Source: an uncultured Anaerolineaceae bacterium
Lineage (GTDB): Bacteria > Chloroflexota > Anaerolineae > Anaerolineales > Anaerolineaceae
Direction of reading: 5' to 3'
Length of the DNA: 64,000 nt
NCBI GenBank assembly: GCA_927443345.1
Contig: CAKMKJ010000010.1
Location: 1-64,000, forward strand
The notes below the pieces were generated by a model that was not told the origin of the DNA, ran no database searches, and was given only the letters and a program-made list of their open reading frames with translations. Position numbers and translations under genes: made by a program. Shown here piece by piece: positions 26,757-39,844 of the stretch (position 1 is its first letter; the number at the start of each line of letters is the position of its first letter).

Positions 26757-29192
26757 CTATTCGTAAGCCAGCACTTCACGGATAGTGAGACTGGCGGCAT
26801 TGCGGGCTGGCAGTAAACTGGCCAGTGCAGATAAGATTAGAACCACCAGGAACCAAATCAGAAAACCTGTGGCTGTGAAAACAACTTTTATGGGAGATTC
26901 GAAAACTGCCAGGCTGACAATATCTGAGAGGACGTAAGTAATGGGTACACTCAGGAAAGCTCCCAGGAGCCATGAAATACCGCCAATGGCCATACCCTCG
27001 ATGATCACGGTCTGCATAATCGCACGATCGACCGCACCAATGGAGCGCATAACGCCAATCTCACGGGTGCGCTCAAGCACGTTCATGCCCATGGTGCCAG
27101 TCAGCCCCATGCTGCCCACGACAGCGGTTAAGATGGCCATGATTAGCAAGAATGTGATGAGAATATTCAGGCTTTCAGTGGCGCTACTTAAGGTTGAATC
27201 TCCTGTACGAACCTGGTCTACGTTGTAGCCGTTGTTTTGGAAATAGGCATCAATAAAAGCCCCCATCTCTTCTTGATTTTGTTTGCTATGATCATCAAGC
27301 ATGATGCGGTACGAGAAAGAACGGTTATTTTGATGGGTGATCTTTGAAATGTATTCGTAGGTTCCGTAGGCGAAAGTGCCTTCCTGTGGGACAAATTTAA
27401 AGATTCCTACAACTGTCCATTCTTCTTTTTTGCCATAAACCTTGATGCGGATTTTATCTCCCGGTTTAATGTTGGGAAAACTTTCGTAAATCTGTTCACT
27501 CAAGGCAAGGGCTTTTTCATCACCTGGGATGAGCCAGCGGCCAGTGACCAGGTTAGGCGTGACCATCGTACTGTCACTTGGAGGTGCCAAGATGGTGATG
27601 TTCTCTGCCAGACTCTCATCCAGATTGATGGCTTCAGCACTGGCGTATGCCCAGCCTTCTATTTTCGCGACGCCAGGGATGGCTAAAACGCGGTTGGTGA
27701 TATCTTTCAACCGGTAGGGCTGATCAAAATCAATGGTAACATCAGCCCTGAAATAATTGGCGATACCATCCATATAATCAAAGAGGGTGACACGAACATT
27801 GAAGACGGCAATAAAAATAGCACCGGCCATGGTTAAAGTAAATAAGGTTAAAATCAACCTGCCTTTGCGTCTGAAAGTATTTCTAAATGAGATCAAAAGC
27901 GGACGCGGAATATGTATGTTGCGCTTTGAGAGCAGCTTGGTAAAGCGCAGGCTGATTTTTTCGATAATGGTTTCTTTTTTAGCTTCCACTGGTTCGGGTT
28001 TGGCTTCTTCAAGCATTTGATTATCGCTCAAGGCGCGAACCACTGATATCTTTGATCCGTTGAGCACCGGTACAAAACCAGCCAGTAAGGGGACGGCGAG
28101 GCCAACAATAATCTGAACAATCAAGGCCAACGGCACGATGCGGTAGCCCATCAAGGCGAAATTGATCTGGTCTGCGATATAGCCGGCAAGCCAATATGCG
28201 CCTTGTCCGCCGAGGGGGACGGCGATGCCCAGGGCGATCAAACAAAAGGACAATATCAACACCATGTACATTTGCAGCACCTGGTTGCGGCTTGCGCCGA
28301 CCAATTTCATGATGCCAATATAGCGTAAATGCTGGTTGAGCAGGGCGTTTAAGGTATTGGCGATTAAAGAACTGCTAAGAAACAGAATCAGAATGCCCAG
28401 CGCTAGTAAAATGCCAAGAATCGCCTGAACCGTCGAAGCCATGGGATGCTCATTGGTTTTGGCATAGCGGGAATGGAAGACGCCGACGCCGCTTTGTTCG
28501 GTTTTGTCTCTTATGACCGTTAACATGGATTGCAAATGAGCGCTGTTATTTTTATTCTCAGTCAAGGTGACATACAAGCGGTTGAATAAGGGCTCTTCAT
28601 TAAGATAGGGCAGGGTATTGACTGTGACATACACAAAAGGGTTGGCAATAAAATCACCTGCCGCAGTACTCGCATCCTGGACGATGCCTACCACCGGGAG
28701 TTCTTTTATATTTCCATTTTCAAGTTGAAGTTCGAGAATCTGACCAACCTTGACCTGCATATCTTGCAGTACTTTGCGTTCAAGTACAGCTTGTTTGTCA
28801 TTTGGCGAATTGGTGCCGGCATCAATGTTTAAGAGATTAATATTTAGGTCAGAATAATCTTCAATGGCAATGACATTAAGGGTTTGCCAATTTTCGGTTC
28901 CTTTAATGCGGGCGCGCATGCTTAATACGGTGCGGCCTTCTGCATCGCTGACGCCGCGCACATTTTGGATGGTAGATACCAATGAATCATCGAACGGCCC
29001 GGTTCGTAGTTCAATATTGGTCGGATTGTTGGATGAATAACTTAAGCTCATATCATTCGAGATAATCACATAAGCGCCGACGATCACGCCGATTGAAAAA
29101 ACACCGACAGCGATTGAGAAGACCACCAGTAAGGTGCGCGACAAATTGTTGATAAGATCATGAAAAACTTTTCGCCAGCGTGGACGCATCAT
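26757..29192 (-). CDS. ABC transporter permease with two FtsX domains
   Basis: An 811-residue permease: N-terminal membrane segment, large extracytoplasmic domain, three-helix FtsX domain (~255-380), cytoplasmic linker, then a second half with its own leading helix, extracytoplasmic part and C-terminal FtsX domain (~690-805). Such double-domain permeases serve lipoprotein- or peptide-type exporters. Its start overlaps the cNMP-ATPase stop by 4 bp. With the two ATPases and the adaptor it forms one export system; the cargo is not shown by the sequence. Confidence 0.92.
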   Translation of the reverse strand: MMRPRWRKVFHDLINNLSRTLLVVFSIAVGVFSIGVIVGAYVIISNDMSLSYSSNNPTNIELRTGPFDDSLVSTIQNVRGVSDAEGRTVLSMRARIKGTENWQTLNVIAIEDYSDLNINLLNIDAGTNSPNDKQAVLERKVLQDMQVKVGQILELQLENGNIKELPVVGIVQDASTAAGDFIANPFVYVTVNTLPYLNEEPLFNRLYVTLTENKNNSAHLQSMLTVIRDKTEQSGVGVFHSRYAKTNEHPMASTVQAILGILLALGILILFLSSSLIANTLNALLNQHLRYIGIMKLVGASRNQVLQMYMVLILSFCLIALGIAVPLGGQGAYWLAGYIADQINFALMGYRIVPLALIVQIIVGLAVPLLAGFVPVLNGSKISVVRALSDNQMLEEAKPEPVEAKKETIIEKISLRFTKLLSKRNIHIPRPLLISFRNTFRRKGRLILTLFTLTMAGAIFIAVFNVRVTLFDYMDGIANYFRADVTIDFDQPYRLKDITNRVLAIPGVAKIEGWAYASAEAINLDESLAENITILAPPSDSTMVTPNLVTGRWLIPGDEKALALSEQIYESFPNIKPGDKIRIKVYGKKEEWTVVGIFKFVPQEGTFAYGTYEYISKITHQNNRSFSYRIMLDDHSKQNQEEMGAFIDAYFQNNGYNVDQVRTGDSTLSSATESLNILITFLLIMAILTAVVGSMGLTGTMGMNVLERTREIGVMRSIGAVDRAIMQTVIIEGMAIGGISWLLGAFLSVPITYVLSDIVSLAVFESPIKVVFTATGFLIWFLVVLILSALASLLPARNAASLTIREVLAYE

Positions 29193-30313
29193 GGTTTGCC
29201 GCCTGTCAGTTTTTGTCTTGCTGAACGGTTCTCTTCGAGGCGCAGACGGACAACATTTTGAATGGCATCTTCGGTTATATGAGAATTTTTCAGTATTTCA
29301 AGAAACTTCTCACGTTTGATACCCACCAGACACACTGGCGTCTCGGTTGAGGCGGATACATTGGCTAAAGAACGTCCGCTGCCTGTCAATTCGATTTCAC
29401 CAAAGAATTGATCCGGTTTCAGGGAGGTGATGGTGAGACGTTTGCCTTTTAGGTTACGAAGGCTGATTTCCACTTCACCGCTAACAATCATGTAAAGGTA
29501 GTCAACAGATTGGTCCTGTGTCAAAATGGATGAGCCGGGGGAAAAGTTAAAACGCTCGAGATTGTGGGTTAAATCAAGTAGTTGGTGGTGTGAAAGGTTA
29601 ACAAAACACTTGGCTACTGTTTCATTGATTAATTCACCATCAGAAATAACCACCGTTCTGGAGGTGCGTTCAGTCAGGGAGGGGTCATGGGTTACCATGA
29701 CGATGGTTTTGCCTGATTTGACCAGATGATCAAAGAGGCTGATGATGACGTCAGAAGATTTAGTGTCGAGATTGCCAGTGGGTTCATCCGCGGCAATGAC
29801 GGGAGGGTCGGTGGCGAGGGCGCGGGCAATGGCTGCGCACTGCTGCTGCCCGGTGGATACGGTGGTGGGCAGTTTATAGGCTTGTTTTTCAAGGCCAACC
29901 ATGGCGAGCAATTCCAGGGCACGTTTGGGACGCTCATCAAAATCATATTTATTGACGAAATCCATGGGCAGCATCACGTTTTCTTGCAGTGTGAGCATGG
30001 GCAGCAGTTGGAAGAATTGGAACACGATGCCGAGGTTATTGCCGCGCCATAAGGAGCGCTTACTTTCATTCATGGTATGCACGTTGACGCCGTTCACGAT
30101 CACGTTGCCGCCAGTGGGATGGTCAATGCCGGTGATCATGTTTAGCAGGGTGGATTTTCCGCTGCCGGATTTGCCGACGATAGCCACAAATTCGCCCTGT
30201 GCAAGACTGAGATCCAACCCTTTGAGCACATGAAAAGTACCTGCGGCATTTTTAAATACCTTTTGTATTTTTTGCATCTCTATGGCGGGGATGGAGGAGG
30301 CCAGGTTTGTCAT
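29189..30313 (-). CDS. ABC ATPase fused to a cyclic-nucleotide-binding domain
   Basis: A 374-residue fusion. Residues ~1-235 form a LolD/MacB-type ATPase: Walker [13 protein letters not shown], Walker [12 protein letters not shown] and H-loop MVTHDPS. The signature is [15 protein letters not shown] instead of [15 protein letters not shown], so the key glycine and arginine are replaced. Residues ~250-355 match a cNMP-binding (Crp-like) fold: [24 protein letters not shown] and [19 protein letters not shown], which includes the phosphate-binding cassette. It is coupled by 4-bp overlaps to its neighbours. I infer that transport is gated by a nucleotide or other ligand and that its ATP site is asymmetric with the partner ATPase. 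Confidence 0.9.
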
Positions 30314-32332: not shown

Positions 32333-33004
32333 ATGGGAATTGTAAAAGAGCATTATTTTTCTCCGTCTTCAATCGAGGCAACGGCTCACAGACTTTTGGA
32401 ATCGACTGAAAAGGCCACGCGTAAAAGATCTGTTTTACCCTCATTGGAAAAATCTGCACTGCTCGTATTGGATATGCAGGAATATTTTCTCAGTGACCAG
32501 TCTCATGCTTTTGTGCCAAGTTCGACTGCAATTCTACCTAAAGTAAATGCTCTCATTAATGCTTTTTCGCATTTTACCCTGCCTGTCATTCTGACTCAAC
32601 ACATCAATACTGCTCAAAATGCTGCGTTGATGGCTGTATGGTGGAGGGATGTAATAAGCGCTGATATGGATCTTAGTAGAATAGATCCCCGCATTGATAC
32701 CCAAAAAGGGATTATCTTTAGTAAAACCCGATATGATGCCTTCATAAATTCACCGCTTAATGAAATTCTTAAGAATCAAAACATCAGGCAGCTTGTTATT
32801 TGCGGAGTGCTGACCCATTTATGTTGTGAAACAACAGCAAGGTCAGCATTTATGCAAGATTATGAAGTCTATTTTACTGTCGACGGAACAGCGACATACA
32901 ATGAAGCTTTTCACAAAGCTGCACTGCTAAATCTTTCACACGGTTTTGCGACGCCAGTTTTGGCAGATGAAGTTATTTCGATCCTGGAGCATAAAAGTGG
33001 ATGA
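32333..33004 (+). CDS. Isochorismatase-family cysteine hydrolase
   Basis: A 223-residue protein of the cysteine-hydrolase fold. Catalytic D47 (LLVLDMQEYF), K131 (FSKTRYDAF) and C164 (GVLTHLCCETTA) form the expected triad. The N-terminal ~40 residues and the HLCCETTA segment resemble the EntB/PhzD isochorismatase subgroup, but those have glycine at the nucleophile position, where this has cysteine, so an amide or similar substrate is more likely. It overlaps the flavoprotein gene by 8 bp and starts the operon. Confidence 0.85.
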   Translation: MGIVKEHYFSPSSIEATAHRLLESTEKATRKRSVLPSLEKSALLVLDMQEYFLSDQSHAFVPSSTAILPKVNALINAFSHFTLPVILTQHINTAQNAALMAVWWRDVISADMDLSRIDPRIDTQKGIIFSKTRYDAFINSPLNEILKNQNIRQLVICGVLTHLCCETTARSAFMQDYEVYFTVDGTATYNEAFHKAALLNLSHGFATPVLADEVISILEHKSG

Positions 33005-33896
33005 TGTTTTTATCATTGGCGCTGGCCCTGCGGGTATGGCAACCGCAATCCAATTAATGCGCTATGGCATAAATCCGCGTGTGTTTGAAAAATCGCGACC
33101 GGGTGGTCTATTATTGAACGCGAATTGGGTAGAGAATTATCCGGGTTTTCCATACGGCATTTCTGGAACGGATTTGGCGGATATTTTTATCGAACAAACA
33201 AAAACAATCACGATTACACAGGAACCAGTCATCGAATTATCCTGGAAGGATGGCTTTTATAACATCGTCACACCAATTATGAATTACCAAGCCAAATTCG
33301 CTGTTATTGCTTCAGGGACCAAACCCAAACTATTAACCGGGTTTTCAGTCTCTGATAAAGTAAAGAACAATATCGTTTATGACCTTGAGGAAATTAAAGA
33401 CCAATCCAGAAAAAAAATGATCGTTGTCGGCAGCGGTGATATCGCGTTTGATTATGCACTAAATCTTGCCAAAGAAAATTCAGTTATAATTCTTAATCAT
33501 TCTGATCAACCCAAATGTTTAAAAAGACTGTATAAACAAGCGGAAGAACATCAGAATATTACATATTTTCCTCAGACCAGAATAGAGACGGTAGAAAAAA
33601 GCTTTGAGGGCGATATGATTGTGGAATGTTCTAGCCCATTTGGTTTGAAGCAATTCCGGTCTGATTATATCGTTGGTGCAATCGGACGGGATCCTCAAAT
33701 TGATTACATTTTATCTTCGGTAATGTCACATACTGCCGAATTTGAAAAAAAGGGCATCCTCCACTTTGTTGGTGATGTAAAAAATGGCTTATTCAGACAA
33801 GCTGCCATTGCTATTGGCGATGGTATCCGTGCTGGTATGCTTATACATCAATCAATTGAGGAGAATGAACATGAAAGTCGTCGCATCCACAAGTAA
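32997..33896 (+). CDS. FAD/NAD(P)-dependent oxidoreductase of thioredoxin-reductase fold without CXXC
   Basis: A 299-residue flavoprotein: FAD-binding VFIIGAGPAGMATAIQL at the N-terminus, NYPGFPYGISGTDLADIF as in thioredoxin reductases, second Rossmann motif MIVVGSGDIAFDYALNL and the C-terminal HFVGDVKNG FAD motif. There is no CXXC pair, so it cannot reduce thioredoxin in the usual way; it may act like ferredoxin/flavodoxin-NADP reductases. I start it at GTG 32997, which has TGGAG upstream and overlaps the previous stop. It overlaps the radical SAM gene by 26 bp. Confidence 0.85.
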   Translation: MDDVFIIGAGPAGMATAIQLMRYGINPRVFEKSRPGGLLLNANWVENYPGFPYGISGTDLADIFIEQTKTITITQEPVIELSWKDGFYNIVTPIMNYQAKFAVIASGTKPKLLTGFSVSDKVKNNIVYDLEEIKDQSRKKMIVVGSGDIAFDYALNLAKENSVIILNHSDQPKCLKRLYKQAEEHQNITYFPQTRIETVEKSFEGDMIVECSSPFGLKQFRSDYIVGAIGRDPQIDYILSSVMSHTAEFEKKGILHFVGDVKNGLFRQAAIAIGDGIRAGMLIHQSIEENEHESRRIHK

Positions 33897-34818
33897 AGAA
33901 AATTCCACAATTGTCTACATCATTGAACAGAAACACGGCAAACTGCTGGAGTGCGTTGAATCGGTTTTACCGTCATCGACACGTCTGGAGAAATGGGTTT
34001 TGCTGGTTTCTACCATGTATGGATGCCCGGTTCATTGTGCCATGTGTGATGCAGGTGGGTATTATCAAGGCAATCCCACGGCAGATGAGATACTGGAGCA
34101 AATCGATTTTCTTGTTCAACAACGATTTCCTGCCAACGTCATTCCCTCCAAACAATTTAAAATTCAGTTCTCTCGAATGGGTGAACCGGCGCTAAATCTG
34201 GCTGTGCTTGAAGTTCTCAAGAGTCTGAGTCAGCGATACAATGCCCCTGGTCTGATGCCTTCCATTTCAACGGTCGCACCTGCGGGGTGTAAAAAGTTCT
34301 TTGATCAATTAATTGACATTAAAAATGAATATTACTCTGGTGGTCGTTTTCAATTTCAATTTTCGATTCATACAACAGATGAGGGTCTTCGTGACCAGAT
34401 TATACCGATTCGAAAATGGCGTTTTAGTGATATGGCTGAATATGGCGACCGTTTTTTCTCGCCAGGAGACCGCAAGATAACCTTAAATTTTGCTCTCGCC
34501 CAACAATCACCCCTTGAGGCAGCTGTTTTAAAAAGATATTTTTCACCAGAGAAATACTTGATTAAAATAACTCCGATTAACCCTACCTATCGCGCAATTG
34601 AAACGAACTTAATATCGCAAGTTGACATCGATTCTCCAAATCAGAATGATGAAATTGTTTCAGCACTGAGTGCAGAGGGATATGAGGTCATCATTAGTAT
34701 TGGGAATGTTGAAGAAAACTTTATCGGAAGTAATTGCGGGCAATATGTCAGAACCCATTTGAAAGCACAGGATAAAATTACGACCGGGTATACTTATCCA
34801 ATTGATAAGTCGCTGTGA
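33871..34818 (+). CDS. RlmN/Cfr-like radical SAM protein
   Basis: A 315-residue radical SAM enzyme. The cluster motif is C52-PVH-C56-AM-C59; the following FSRMGEPALN, SISTVAPAG and SIHTTDEGLRDQIIPI segments and the late GSNCGQYVR (C289) align with RlmN/Cfr, which methylate A2503 of 23S rRNA. In RlmN a second essential cysteine lies seven residues before the first cluster cysteine (LCVSSQVGC); here that position is leucine (LLVSTMYGC). It also lacks the usual N-terminal RNA-binding domain. Starts at 33871 with GAGGAG upstream. So it belongs to the family but probably does different chemistry. It ends the operon. Confidence 0.85.
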   Translation: MKVVASTSKENSTIVYIIEQKHGKLLECVESVLPSSTRLEKWVLLVSTMYGCPVHCAMCDAGGYYQGNPTADEILEQIDFLVQQRFPANVIPSKQFKIQFSRMGEPALNLAVLEVLKSLSQRYNAPGLMPSISTVAPAGCKKFFDQLIDIKNEYYSGGRFQFQFSIHTTDEGLRDQIIPIRKWRFSDMAEYGDRFFSPGDRKITLNFALAQQSPLEAAVLKRYFSPEKYLIKITPINPTYRAIETNLISQVDIDSPNQNDEIVSALSAEGYEVIISIGNVEENFIGSNCGQYVRTHLKAQDKITTGYTYPIDKSL

Positions 34819-37717: not shown

Positions 37718-38266
37718 TTGAAGAAAACAGTTATTATCTTTGCAGGGTTAGGGTTATTAATTGCCCTGGTTTTTGTCAGCATTCCCAACAATGTTCAAGC
37801 AGGCTTTACGGTGACAAAACAGCCTATCGCAGCCGGAGAGTGGAATACCGGAACCGCGATTGAGGTTGATTTGACTGCGGCTCCGGCACCGGAATGGCTG
37901 CAATTGATGACTACGGATGCAGTTGTGGTCAAAGAACCCACGGAGATTTGCCACGAATTGAGGGGCGGCAAATACCATTGGGTTGGCGAGATTAGACAAT
38001 TACAGGAAGGCAAATGGATCAAGCTTGAAACCAATAATGGCTGGGTACCGGATGAAGAGGGGGCTTACATGACATGCGCGCAAGCACCATCTGCGGGGAC
38101 TTATGCCCTTTTTGCCTACTATAATGGACCGCAAGAGTTTTTCTATGCTACAGAAGCCCCTGCACAAGATTGCGGAATTAATGAAGAATTTGTAGGTGGA
38201 ATCTGTGTATGCAAGTCGGGTTATACATTTAAAAACGATGCTTGTTCACGAAACAAACTATTCTAA
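37718..38266 (+). CDS. Secreted protein of unknown function, paralogue A
   Basis: A 182-residue protein with a signal peptide (MKKTVIIFAGLGLLIALVFV, cleavage near NVQAG) and a ~110-residue domain: AGEWNTGTAIEVDLTAAPAP, then EWLQLMTT, ICHELRGGKYHWVGEIRQL and YALFAY. A short cysteine-rich tail follows (CGINEEFVGGICVCKSGYTF). The domain recurs in the gene at 38927, about 0.7 kb away on the opposite strand. The start is TTG (37718) with GAGG upstream. I recognise no family. Confidence 0.7.
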   Translation: MKKTVIIFAGLGLLIALVFVSIPNNVQAGFTVTKQPIAAGEWNTGTAIEVDLTAAPAPEWLQLMTTDAVVVKEPTEICHELRGGKYHWVGEIRQLQEGKWIKLETNNGWVPDEEGAYMTCAQAPSAGTYALFAYYNGPQEFFYATEAPAQDCGINEEFVGGICVCKSGYTFKNDACSRNKLF

Positions 38267-38926: not shown

Positions 38927-39673
38927 TCACCCAGGGAAAGATGAGTAGATTAATGTTCCAGGGTATGTGCAGTTATGTAAACCTTCATATAGTGTAAATA
39001 TGACGGGATCAAAATAATCACCATCGAGTCCAGTATCGATACCGAAAAAGTTTTCACTAAGAGTATCGTAACCTGATGCTGGATCCTCTGATTCTAAATC
39101 TGGGGTGCTGGATACAACTGTGTAATAAAATCGAGTACCATCGGGTAAATTGCTCCCCGATCCAGAAATTAAAATATTTCCATCGGCACCAACATATATC
39201 TCTCCCCATTCAATCGTATTACAGTCGAAACCCGGTGCTCCATCTGCTACAACATATCCAGCCGGTCTGATCCAATATCCAAAGAGGGCGTAGGTGCCGG
39301 CGGCCGGAGCCTCGGCGCAAGACATGAACTGACCTTCCGTGCCATTAACCCAGTCATTAGTGGTTTTTAGTTTGAACCACTCGCCGCTTTTATATTGGCG
39401 AATTTCGCCAATCCAGCCGAACTGTCCGCCGCGGAAGGGATGGCAAATTTTGCCTGCTTCAGTGACTCTGACGCCATTAGTGAGCAGTTGCAGCCATGTG
39501 GGCGCTTTTGCAGCCAATGTAGTGACATCGACAGCCTGACCAGCAGTCCACGAACCACCGGCAATGAGTGGGCTGATCTCATTTTCTTTTGCCTGCGCCT
39601 GGTGAGGGGCACTCATCAGCACCAAACCTAAAACAAAAAGAATAGCCAATACAATTCTTGCGTTTTTATTCAT
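38927..39673 (-). CDS. Secreted protein of unknown function, paralogue B
   Basis: A 248-residue protein with a signal peptide (MNKNARIVLAILFVLGLVLM, cleavage near HQAQA) and the same domain as the gene at 37718: AGGSWTAGQAVDVTTLAAKAP, TWLQLLTNGVRVTEAGKICH, PFRGGQFGWIGEIRQYKSG and GTYALFGYW. A different ~110-residue C-terminal region follows, with EIYVGADGNILISGSGSN. I start it at 39673 with GGAGG upstream; an in-frame extension to 39733 would put a second basic segment before the signal. It faces paralogue A across a gap of 660 bp. Confidence 0.75.
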   Translation of the reverse strand: MNKNARIVLAILFVLGLVLMSAPHQAQAKENEISPLIAGGSWTAGQAVDVTTLAAKAPTWLQLLTNGVRVTEAGKICHPFRGGQFGWIGEIRQYKSGEWFKLKTTNDWVNGTEGQFMSCAEAPAAGTYALFGYWIRPAGYVVADGAPGFDCNTIEWGEIYVGADGNILISGSGSNLPDGTRFYYTVVSSTPDLESEDPASGYDTLSENFFGIDTGLDGDYFDPVIFTLYEGLHNCTYPGTLIYSSFPG

Positions 39674-39844
39674 TTTATTCCTCCATTTTGAATATTTCTT
39701 GAACACTTGGTTCATATGCAATAAAAGCATCAATCAAGTGACCAACATTGAAGAAAAACTGATTCTAATTTAGGCAAAAACTCAATGGATAAGAAAAAGC
39801 AACCGATATATTCTTCAACAAAAATTGTACAAGAAATAGACGAA

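Follow-up and report, generated by a model that had tools for sequence, protein, structure and literature searches.

Introduction

Class A methylases use two catalytic cysteines (PMC9692996). In RlmN and Cfr, the second of them is the presumed base for breakdown of the adduct, and its mutation traps a protein-RNA adduct (PMC9692996 and PMC13001441). PMC13001441 also describes the N-terminal domain of Cfr as an anchor for the RNA, and the residues R184 and R185 as contacting the rRNA. For a study of E. coli RlmN, flavodoxin and ferredoxin:NADPH oxidoreductase were purified (PMC5130265). This report deals with a three-gene locus in a stretch of 64,000 nucleotides (hereafter, the window) from the metagenome-assembled genome of an uncultured Anaerolineaceae bacterium (GenBank assembly GCA_927443345.1, contig CAKMKJ010000010.1, positions 1 to 64,000). 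The locus encodes a cysteine hydrolase (HYD), a flavoprotein with the fold of thioredoxin reductase (TrxR), referred to as FLV, and an RlmN-like radical S-adenosylmethionine (SAM) protein. The order, overlaps, fusions and co-occurrence of these genes indicate that the trio is almost certainly one functional unit. The radical SAM protein lacks the second catalytic cysteine, an oddity that comes on top of the CXXC-less flavoprotein already recognized in the original prediction made from this sequence. Each component comes from a known superfamily; the three-gene set and the cysteine-deficient RlmN clade appear to be new as far as the literature shows, no description of either having been found in sources of mostly open-access coverage, which is weak evidence of absence.

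The three-gene locus and its conservation

The three genes are co-directional and overlap by 8 bp (HYD/FLV) and 26 bp (FLV/SAM). Their features are the following:

32333-33004, + strand: HYD, isochorismatase-fold cysteine hydrolase of 223 amino acids (aa), with the triad D47-K131-C164
32997-33896, + strand: FLV, TrxR-fold FAD protein without CXXC, 299 aa, GTG start
33871-34818, + strand: SAM, RlmN-like radical SAM protein, 315 aa, ATG start
Residues of the radical SAM protein: C52, C56 and C59, cluster motif; C289, equivalent to RlmN C355; L45, at the site of RlmN C118

These coordinates and overlaps agree with the original prediction, and its family calls (hydrolase, TrxR-fold flavoprotein, and RlmN-like radical SAM protein) hold by Pfam and NCBIfam profile scores. 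An in-frame ATG at position 33865 is a possible alternative start of the radical SAM gene, yet five aligned relatives begin with MK.

Relatives of the locus were collected by two routes. The GTDB species genomes were scanned with two short peptide patterns, an approach that undercounts, and 58 loci were obtained, of which 56 belong to the radical SAM family of the trio and two (L083 and L084) are RlmN-type. Whole-genome profile searches for the radical SAM protein were made at an E-value of 1e-60 in four genome samples that overlap. Sixty fetched stretches, the 56 pattern-scan loci and the window make up 117 loci, reduced to 107 at 95% identity of the radical SAM protein; 17 matches from the searches in the phyla of the Aminicenantes and Thermoplasmatota genomes were left out or are present as short loci only.

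Across these 107 non-redundant loci, the radical SAM gene is preceded by FLV at a distance of no more than 800 bp in 106, and in the remaining one (L224) a single open reading frame (ORF) stands between them. HYD is linked in 98 loci, window included; in 97 it lies upstream, and in one (L078) it is fused to the downstream end of the radical SAM protein. The nine loci without a linked HYD fall into two groups: in four (L061, L062, L070, and L235) the contig ends too early to accommodate it, and the remaining five (L049, L054, L057, L064, and L226) come from genomes that carry a HYD-family gene, scoring 206-299 bits, elsewhere. Since the best match to the HYD profile in 50 genomes negative for the radical SAM gene (41 from the order of the window and nine from the Thermoplasmatota set) is 100.1 bits, HYD accompanies the radical SAM protein even when unlinked. 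The exception is genome G862, source of the contig-end locus L235, in which the best HYD match reaches just 87 bits and HYD may fall in an assembly gap. The original prediction of a joint system, which would be undermined by homologues lying apart in other genomes, is thus borne out: they do adjoin one another, above chance. The genome of the window has two isochorismatase-fold genes, one radical SAM gene of the trio family and one RlmN; with so few copies of the families, the meeting of the three genes here and in 98 of the 107 loci is not attributable to chance.

The spacing is also tight, with a median gap of -4 bp at both junctions between a stop codon and the homology of the next gene. 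In addition, each pair of partners is found fused once: FLV-SAM in L064 (622 aa), HYD-FLV in L069 (537 aa), and SAM-HYD in L078 (519 aa).

The distribution of the radical SAM family is sporadic and widespread. Positive genomes amount to 6 of 400 in the phylum of the window, 26 of 201 in its order, 13 of 247 in the phylum of the Aminicenantes genome, and 34 of 194 in that of the Thermoplasmatota genome. The bacterial carriers found by the pattern scan belong to Chloroflexi, Fermentibacteraceae, Sabulitectum, Thermotogae, Zixibacteria, Aminicenantes, Acidobacteria, Myxococcota, Deltaproteobacteria, WOR-3, Elusimicrobia, Gastranaerophilales, and Clostridiales, and the archaeal carriers to Thermoplasmatota; nearly all pattern-scan loci come from metagenome assemblies. 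Such a sporadic and widespread distribution is the pattern expected of horizontally moving genes. The G+C content of the trio (40-42%, vs 47% in the window) likewise suggests an acquired segment, a reading tempered by two loci of close relatives (L027 and L028), where the trio stands between relatives of the upstream dehydrogenase and of the downstream gene of the window.

The radical SAM protein

The radical SAM protein scores 54.8 bits against the RlmN model TIGR00048, under its NCBIfam cut-off of 290. Its AlphaFold model, built with 44 family sequences, has a predicted local distance difference test score (pLDDT) of 93.6 and superimposes on E. coli RlmN (5hr6) over 268 residues, within chain residues 80-362, with a Z-score of 25.0 and a root-mean-square deviation (rmsd) of 2.9; Cfr (9p0p) follows with 18.0, and lipoyl synthase, the closest match from another family, reaches 14.0. 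As modelled, the protein is the RlmN fold minus residues 1-79, the N-terminal RNA-binding domain.

The catalytic residues have been kept selectively. The cluster motif CX3CX2C is intact in all 107 loci, and the methyl-carrier cysteine (RlmN C355, Cfr C338) is present, within a CGQ motif, in 101/101 alignment rows that reach the site; six of the 107 rows fall short of it, four of them cut by contig ends. E27 is kept in 107/107 as well. We take this residue, aligned with Cfr E91, to be the counterpart of RlmN E105, which deprotonates the methyl carrier; the assignment is an inference from a profile alignment to Cfr, and a plain MAFFT alignment with RlmN leaves E30 opposite no glutamate. At the site of RlmN C118 (Cfr C105), a cysteine is found in none of the 107 loci, the position being occupied by Leu, Ile, Met, Thr or Val, whereas it is present in the 17/17 RlmN proteins aligned as a control with 53 trio rows (four truncated rows left out). 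No cysteine other than the cluster ligands and the methyl carrier is invariant (44 rows).

The residues that would contact RNA have changed too. At the sites of Cfr R184 and R185, mapped through the Cfr alignment, the trio proteins are hydrophobic in 53/53 and 52/53 rows (the other being Thr), vs Arg in 16/17 and Arg or Lys in 17/17 RlmN proteins, respectively; in the 107-locus set Arg and Lys are absent from these sites, and Tyr, Asn, His or Thr turns up in a small number of rows (three rows are short). Where RlmN has N and V, the trio protein carries K97 (53/53 rows) and Q99 (52/53). The median isoelectric point (pI) is 6.07 in the trio proteins (53 rows, range 4.7-9.3) vs 8.39 in RlmN (15 rows).

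In a tree of 66 sequences (29 of 53 trio, 22 of 80 phage, and 15 of 17 RlmN rows, picked at random or for their length or spread), a branch with 100/100 support puts RlmN on one side and the trio and phage proteins on the other. The separation of the trio group from the phage group is weakly supported (54/41). Two rows form long branches, and one of these, from a phage, does not fall among the remaining phage rows. A complete RlmN (383.5 bits) is encoded on a different contig of the genome of the window, and RlmN is above the cut-off in 28 of 45 carrier genomes tested. The 17 carriers without it comprise 13 genomes classed as archaeal by locus title or through the Thermoplasmatota search and four bacterial genomes (G062, G068, G070, and G092); 14 archaeal carriers were tested and one (G1009) was positive, and no RlmN was found in four archaeal control genomes. 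Judged by genome content, the trio protein does not stand in for RlmN. It is very unlikely to act as a normal RlmN because it lacks C118 and, in the model, the N-terminal RNA-binding domain, and because a separate true RlmN exists.

The closest other group found is the phage protein family phrog_24834, which is RlmN-like. Of the 77 phage rows that cover the C118 site with a residue, 72 carry Thr and five Gly, and the methyl-carrier cysteine is present in 74/74, within a CGNA motif. Viral contigs (80 of 111 confirmed loci, with flanks of up to 4 kb) yielded only relatives of the phrog_24834 type, with no more than 34% identity, and around them no FLV match and three weak HYD matches. Other mobile elements gave six plasmid records with 23-29% identity to the radical SAM protein, three of them annotated as rlmN, and 20 phage records, the best with 32% identity. 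By eye, genes near phrog_24834 (L085-L164) include an apparent DNA methyltransferase in 10/80 loci and an apparent SAM synthetase in 7/80. A hydrolase-fold gene directly follows the RlmN-like gene in three phage loci (L137, L139, and L160), and a gene resembling nicotinate phosphoribosyltransferase, again by eye, is found further downstream in L160, where phage NAD salvage may be involved.

The flavoprotein and the hydrolase

FLV scores 110.9 bits against the TrxR model TIGR01292, a third of its cut-off of 343. The AlphaFold model (pLDDT 94.2) matches best L. lactis TrxR in the flavin-reducing conformation (5mh4; Z-score 32.2, rmsd 2.5, 283 residues); against a TrxR-type ferredoxin-NADP reductase (FNR), 8c16, the Z-score is 25.5. 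The original prediction that FLV lacks the redox cysteines is upheld by the alignment, in which both are replaced. In 49 rows aligned with the two TrxRs of the genome of the window (four rows of odd length left out), the first site, occupied by Tyr in the FLV of the window, is Tyr in 46 and Phe in two, and the CXXC motif is absent in 48; the exception comes from L078, in which a separate TrxR-like gene stands beside, and ahead of, the FLV of the trio. Over the 107 loci, Tyr occupies the first site in 75 and Cys in two, the rest being mixed, and the second site is Cys in none. The HRR...R motif of the local TrxR, presumably the site for the 2'-phosphate of NADPH, reads NHS...K in the FLV of the window; with this motif weakened, FLV perhaps prefers NADH. 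The loss of the redox cysteines and the FLV-SAM fusion make it plausible that FLV feeds electrons to the radical SAM protein, as the original prediction had it.

HYD reaches 130.5 bits against Pfam Isochorismatase PF00857 (cut-off 27). Its nearest solved structures are EntB (2fq1) and the cysteine hydrolase 3irv, and it falls far under the cut-offs of the RutB, YcaC, BiuH and nicotinamidase models. In an alignment of 98 rows, D, K and C are conserved in 96/96, 97/97 and 97/97 of those with a residue at the site; we take these three to be the Asp-Lys-Cys triad of cysteine hydrolases. With the triad intact, it is plausible that HYD prepares or releases the substrate, the role first suggested for it.

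Proposed function and alternatives

The sequence provides the co-occurrence, the gene order, the fusions and the kept or lost residues; the chemistry and the substrate class we infer. A self-contained system is proposed, in which FLV would reduce the radical SAM protein, the latter would carry out one-cysteine RlmN-like chemistry on a non-RNA substrate, and HYD would cleave a C-N bond. This proposal is the likeliest of the readings considered and a serious possibility, although somewhat short of probable. According to it, FLV, no longer capable of disulfide reduction by way of a CXXC, would take electrons from NAD(P)H, perhaps NADH, and transfer them to the [4Fe-4S] cluster, either directly or via ferredoxin or flavodoxin; it might also reduce the thiyl remaining after turnover. 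The first step would be methylation of C289 assisted by E27, in analogy to C355 and E105 of RlmN, and a second molecule of S-adenosylmethionine would give the 5'-deoxyadenosyl radical. The Cys-CH2 radical would then add to an sp2 carbon of a substrate other than structured RNA; the likeliest candidate is a small metabolite that contains nitrogen and is perhaps purine-like. Without C118 as the general base, the adduct would have to be released by means of another base or a different exit. With its Asp-Lys-Cys residues, HYD would cut a C-N bond, such as that of an amide or carbamoyl group, in either the substrate or the product. A more specific scheme, a new class of radical SAM one-carbon chemistry in which one-cysteine methyl loading leads to a small-molecule adduct with a new ending (for instance, exocyclic methylene, ring closure or methylene bridge in place of a methyl), served by a dedicated NAD(P)H flavoprotein and a finishing hydrolase, seems rather doubtful at present.

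Several points weigh against the self-contained system. The loss of C118 leaves RlmN with a covalent adduct, so RlmN-like methyl transfer may be absent here; a protein or a small RNA as the substrate would still be compatible with the loss of the N-terminal domain and the low pI; each of the fusions comes from a single metagenome assembly; and neither the neighbouring genes nor the riboswitch scans described below contain a pointer to a metabolite. Concerning FLV, TrxRs outscore TrxR-type FNRs as its relatives, the scores do not separate an FNR-like from a TrxR-like origin, and its presumed role as an electron transferase is deduced from the cysteine loss and a single fusion.

The persistence of the RlmN fold, together with an Asn (alignment column 239) and a basic residue (K202) common to RlmN, would suit a radical SAM protein that acts on nucleic acid or protein targets (for instance tRNA, small RNAs, HYD or FLV), with FLV as its reductase and HYD acting on the modified residue or the free base. 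Some phage relatives near apparent DNA methyltransferase (10/80) or SAM synthetase (7/80) genes, identified by eye, would fit as well. This explanation is nonetheless unlikely, given the absent N-terminal RNA-binding domain, the lost RNA-contacting arginines and the lower pI. To our knowledge, an obligate hydrolase partner would be unusual for RNA modification.

A non-methylase, in which the substrate reacts with the 5'-deoxyadenosyl radical and receives a hydrogen atom back from C289, in the manner of an epimerase or lyase of a catabolic or salvage route, would account for the single invariant cysteine besides the cluster ligands, when class A methylases use two (PMC9692996). The conservation of E27 (107/107) and of the carrier cysteine (101/101) is what would be expected if C289 were still methylated, and makes this option improbable.

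The trio might instead be an accessory to biotin synthesis or to adenosine/purine salvage: biotin genes lie by it in seven Fermentibacteria/Sabulitectum loci and in L244, and it has adenosine deaminase genes nearby in seven Fermentibacteria/Sabulitectum and two Chloroflexi loci. However, BioB is above the cut-off in just 9/43 carriers, a locus of the same clade (L043) has the trio without adjacent biotin genes, and no Pfam family occurs more than three times among 109 neighbours, which renders such a role quite improbable.

That the radical SAM protein is an ordinary RlmN paralogue methylating A2503 among incidental neighbours is scarcely credible: RlmN and Cfr are its best characterized relatives, and four bacterial carriers (G062, G068, G070, and G092) show no RlmN of their own, perhaps owing to assembly gaps, but C118 occurs in 0/107, a separate RlmN is present in 28/45 carriers including the genome of the window, the tree split from RlmN has 100/100 support, and the co-occurrence, with 98/107 linked trios, already contradicts it.

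Genomic context

For the survey of neighbours, the radical SAM proteins were grouped into 66 clusters at 70% identity, whose nearest neighbours, with an upper size limit of 650 aa, amounted to 105 ORFs. This set was adjusted by hand (four replaced and three dropped, as spurious-looking or as trio genes, and seven added from further loci), and in the 109 scanned no Pfam family occurred more than three times; hence, no fixed further partner exists in this sample. Riboswitches were searched for in 10.5 kb around the genes of the window, where none was found at a permissive threshold, and in 53 of the 116 fetched whole loci, where at the gathering threshold only tRNAs and one DUF3800-IX RNA appeared. 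The latter is located at L032:4437-4517 (-), about 3.9 kb upstream of the trio. A role in defence was also considered; the PADLOC scan matched FLV once, weakly, to a desaturase, and found no match for either the radical SAM protein or HYD.

In L040, L042, L045, L046, L047, L071, and L082 (Fermentibacteria/Sabulitectum), biotin genes are followed by the trio in the same direction, with an opposite-strand gene between them in L046. Among these genes bioB and bioF are over the cut-offs, the bioC- and bioH-like genes are below them, and bioD and bioA were recognized by eye. In L244, from the phylum of the Aminicenantes genome, relatives of bioD-bioA-bioF, plus a bioB identified by eye, adjoin the trio in convergent orientation. 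BioB was not found above the cut-off in 34 of the 43 carrier genomes. The idea that the radical SAM protein substitutes for biotin synthase was dropped, as bioB itself is among the adjacent biotin genes. Adenosine deaminase accompanies the trio in two lineages that are unrelated: it is located one gene upstream in L029 and L030 (Chloroflexi), and in L040, L041, L042, L045, L046, L047, and L082 there are usually two tandem copies downstream, on the other strand; five of the proteins were individually checked. Both contexts are weak leads.

Two further features of the window may be mentioned, each described by eye or by its motif:

29189-30313, - strand: ABC-type ATPase with VSTGQQQ in place of LSGGQ, the usual ABC signature; by eye, its last ~120 residues resemble a cyclic-nucleotide-binding domain
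37718-38266, + strand, and 38927-39733, - strand: two related small secreted-looking proteins that share a W[VI]GEIRQ core

A pair similar to the W[VI]GEIRQ proteins is found downstream of the trio in L022.

Comparison with known systems

If the more specific scheme with a new ending is real, the trio would represent an undescribed metabolite or cofactor pathway common to bacteria and archaea, and phages would have a related branch with one cysteine. A widespread natural family without C118 in 107/107 loci, nearly always accompanied by the two partner enzymes, makes directly testable how such an adduct can be resolved, or what else the fold can do. The locus is also a precise target for tracking down a metabolite or modification among bacteria and archaea that are poorly represented in culture, and it gives a functional hint for the unnamed phage family phrog_24834.

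The radical SAM protein is similar to RlmN and Cfr in the fold, the CX3CX2C motif, the methyl-carrier cysteine and, from the Cfr alignment, an E105-like glutamate. RlmN and Cfr differ in having the second cysteine, the N-terminal domain and the RNA-contacting arginines, while the trio protein has FLV and HYD as partners. The phage proteins of phrog_24834 are likewise RlmN-like, lack C118, retain the carrier cysteine, and share its side of the 100/100 branch opposite RlmN. FLV has the two-domain FAD/NAD(P) fold of TrxR and TrxR-type FNR; TrxR carries both redox cysteines, whereas the FNR, like FLV, is devoid of the redox CXXC. HYD shares with EntB and the PF00857 cysteine hydrolases the fold and the Asp and Lys positions, and with the cysteine hydrolases the whole Asp-Lys-Cys triad; in contrast, EntB has a Gly in the alignment at the Cys of HYD.

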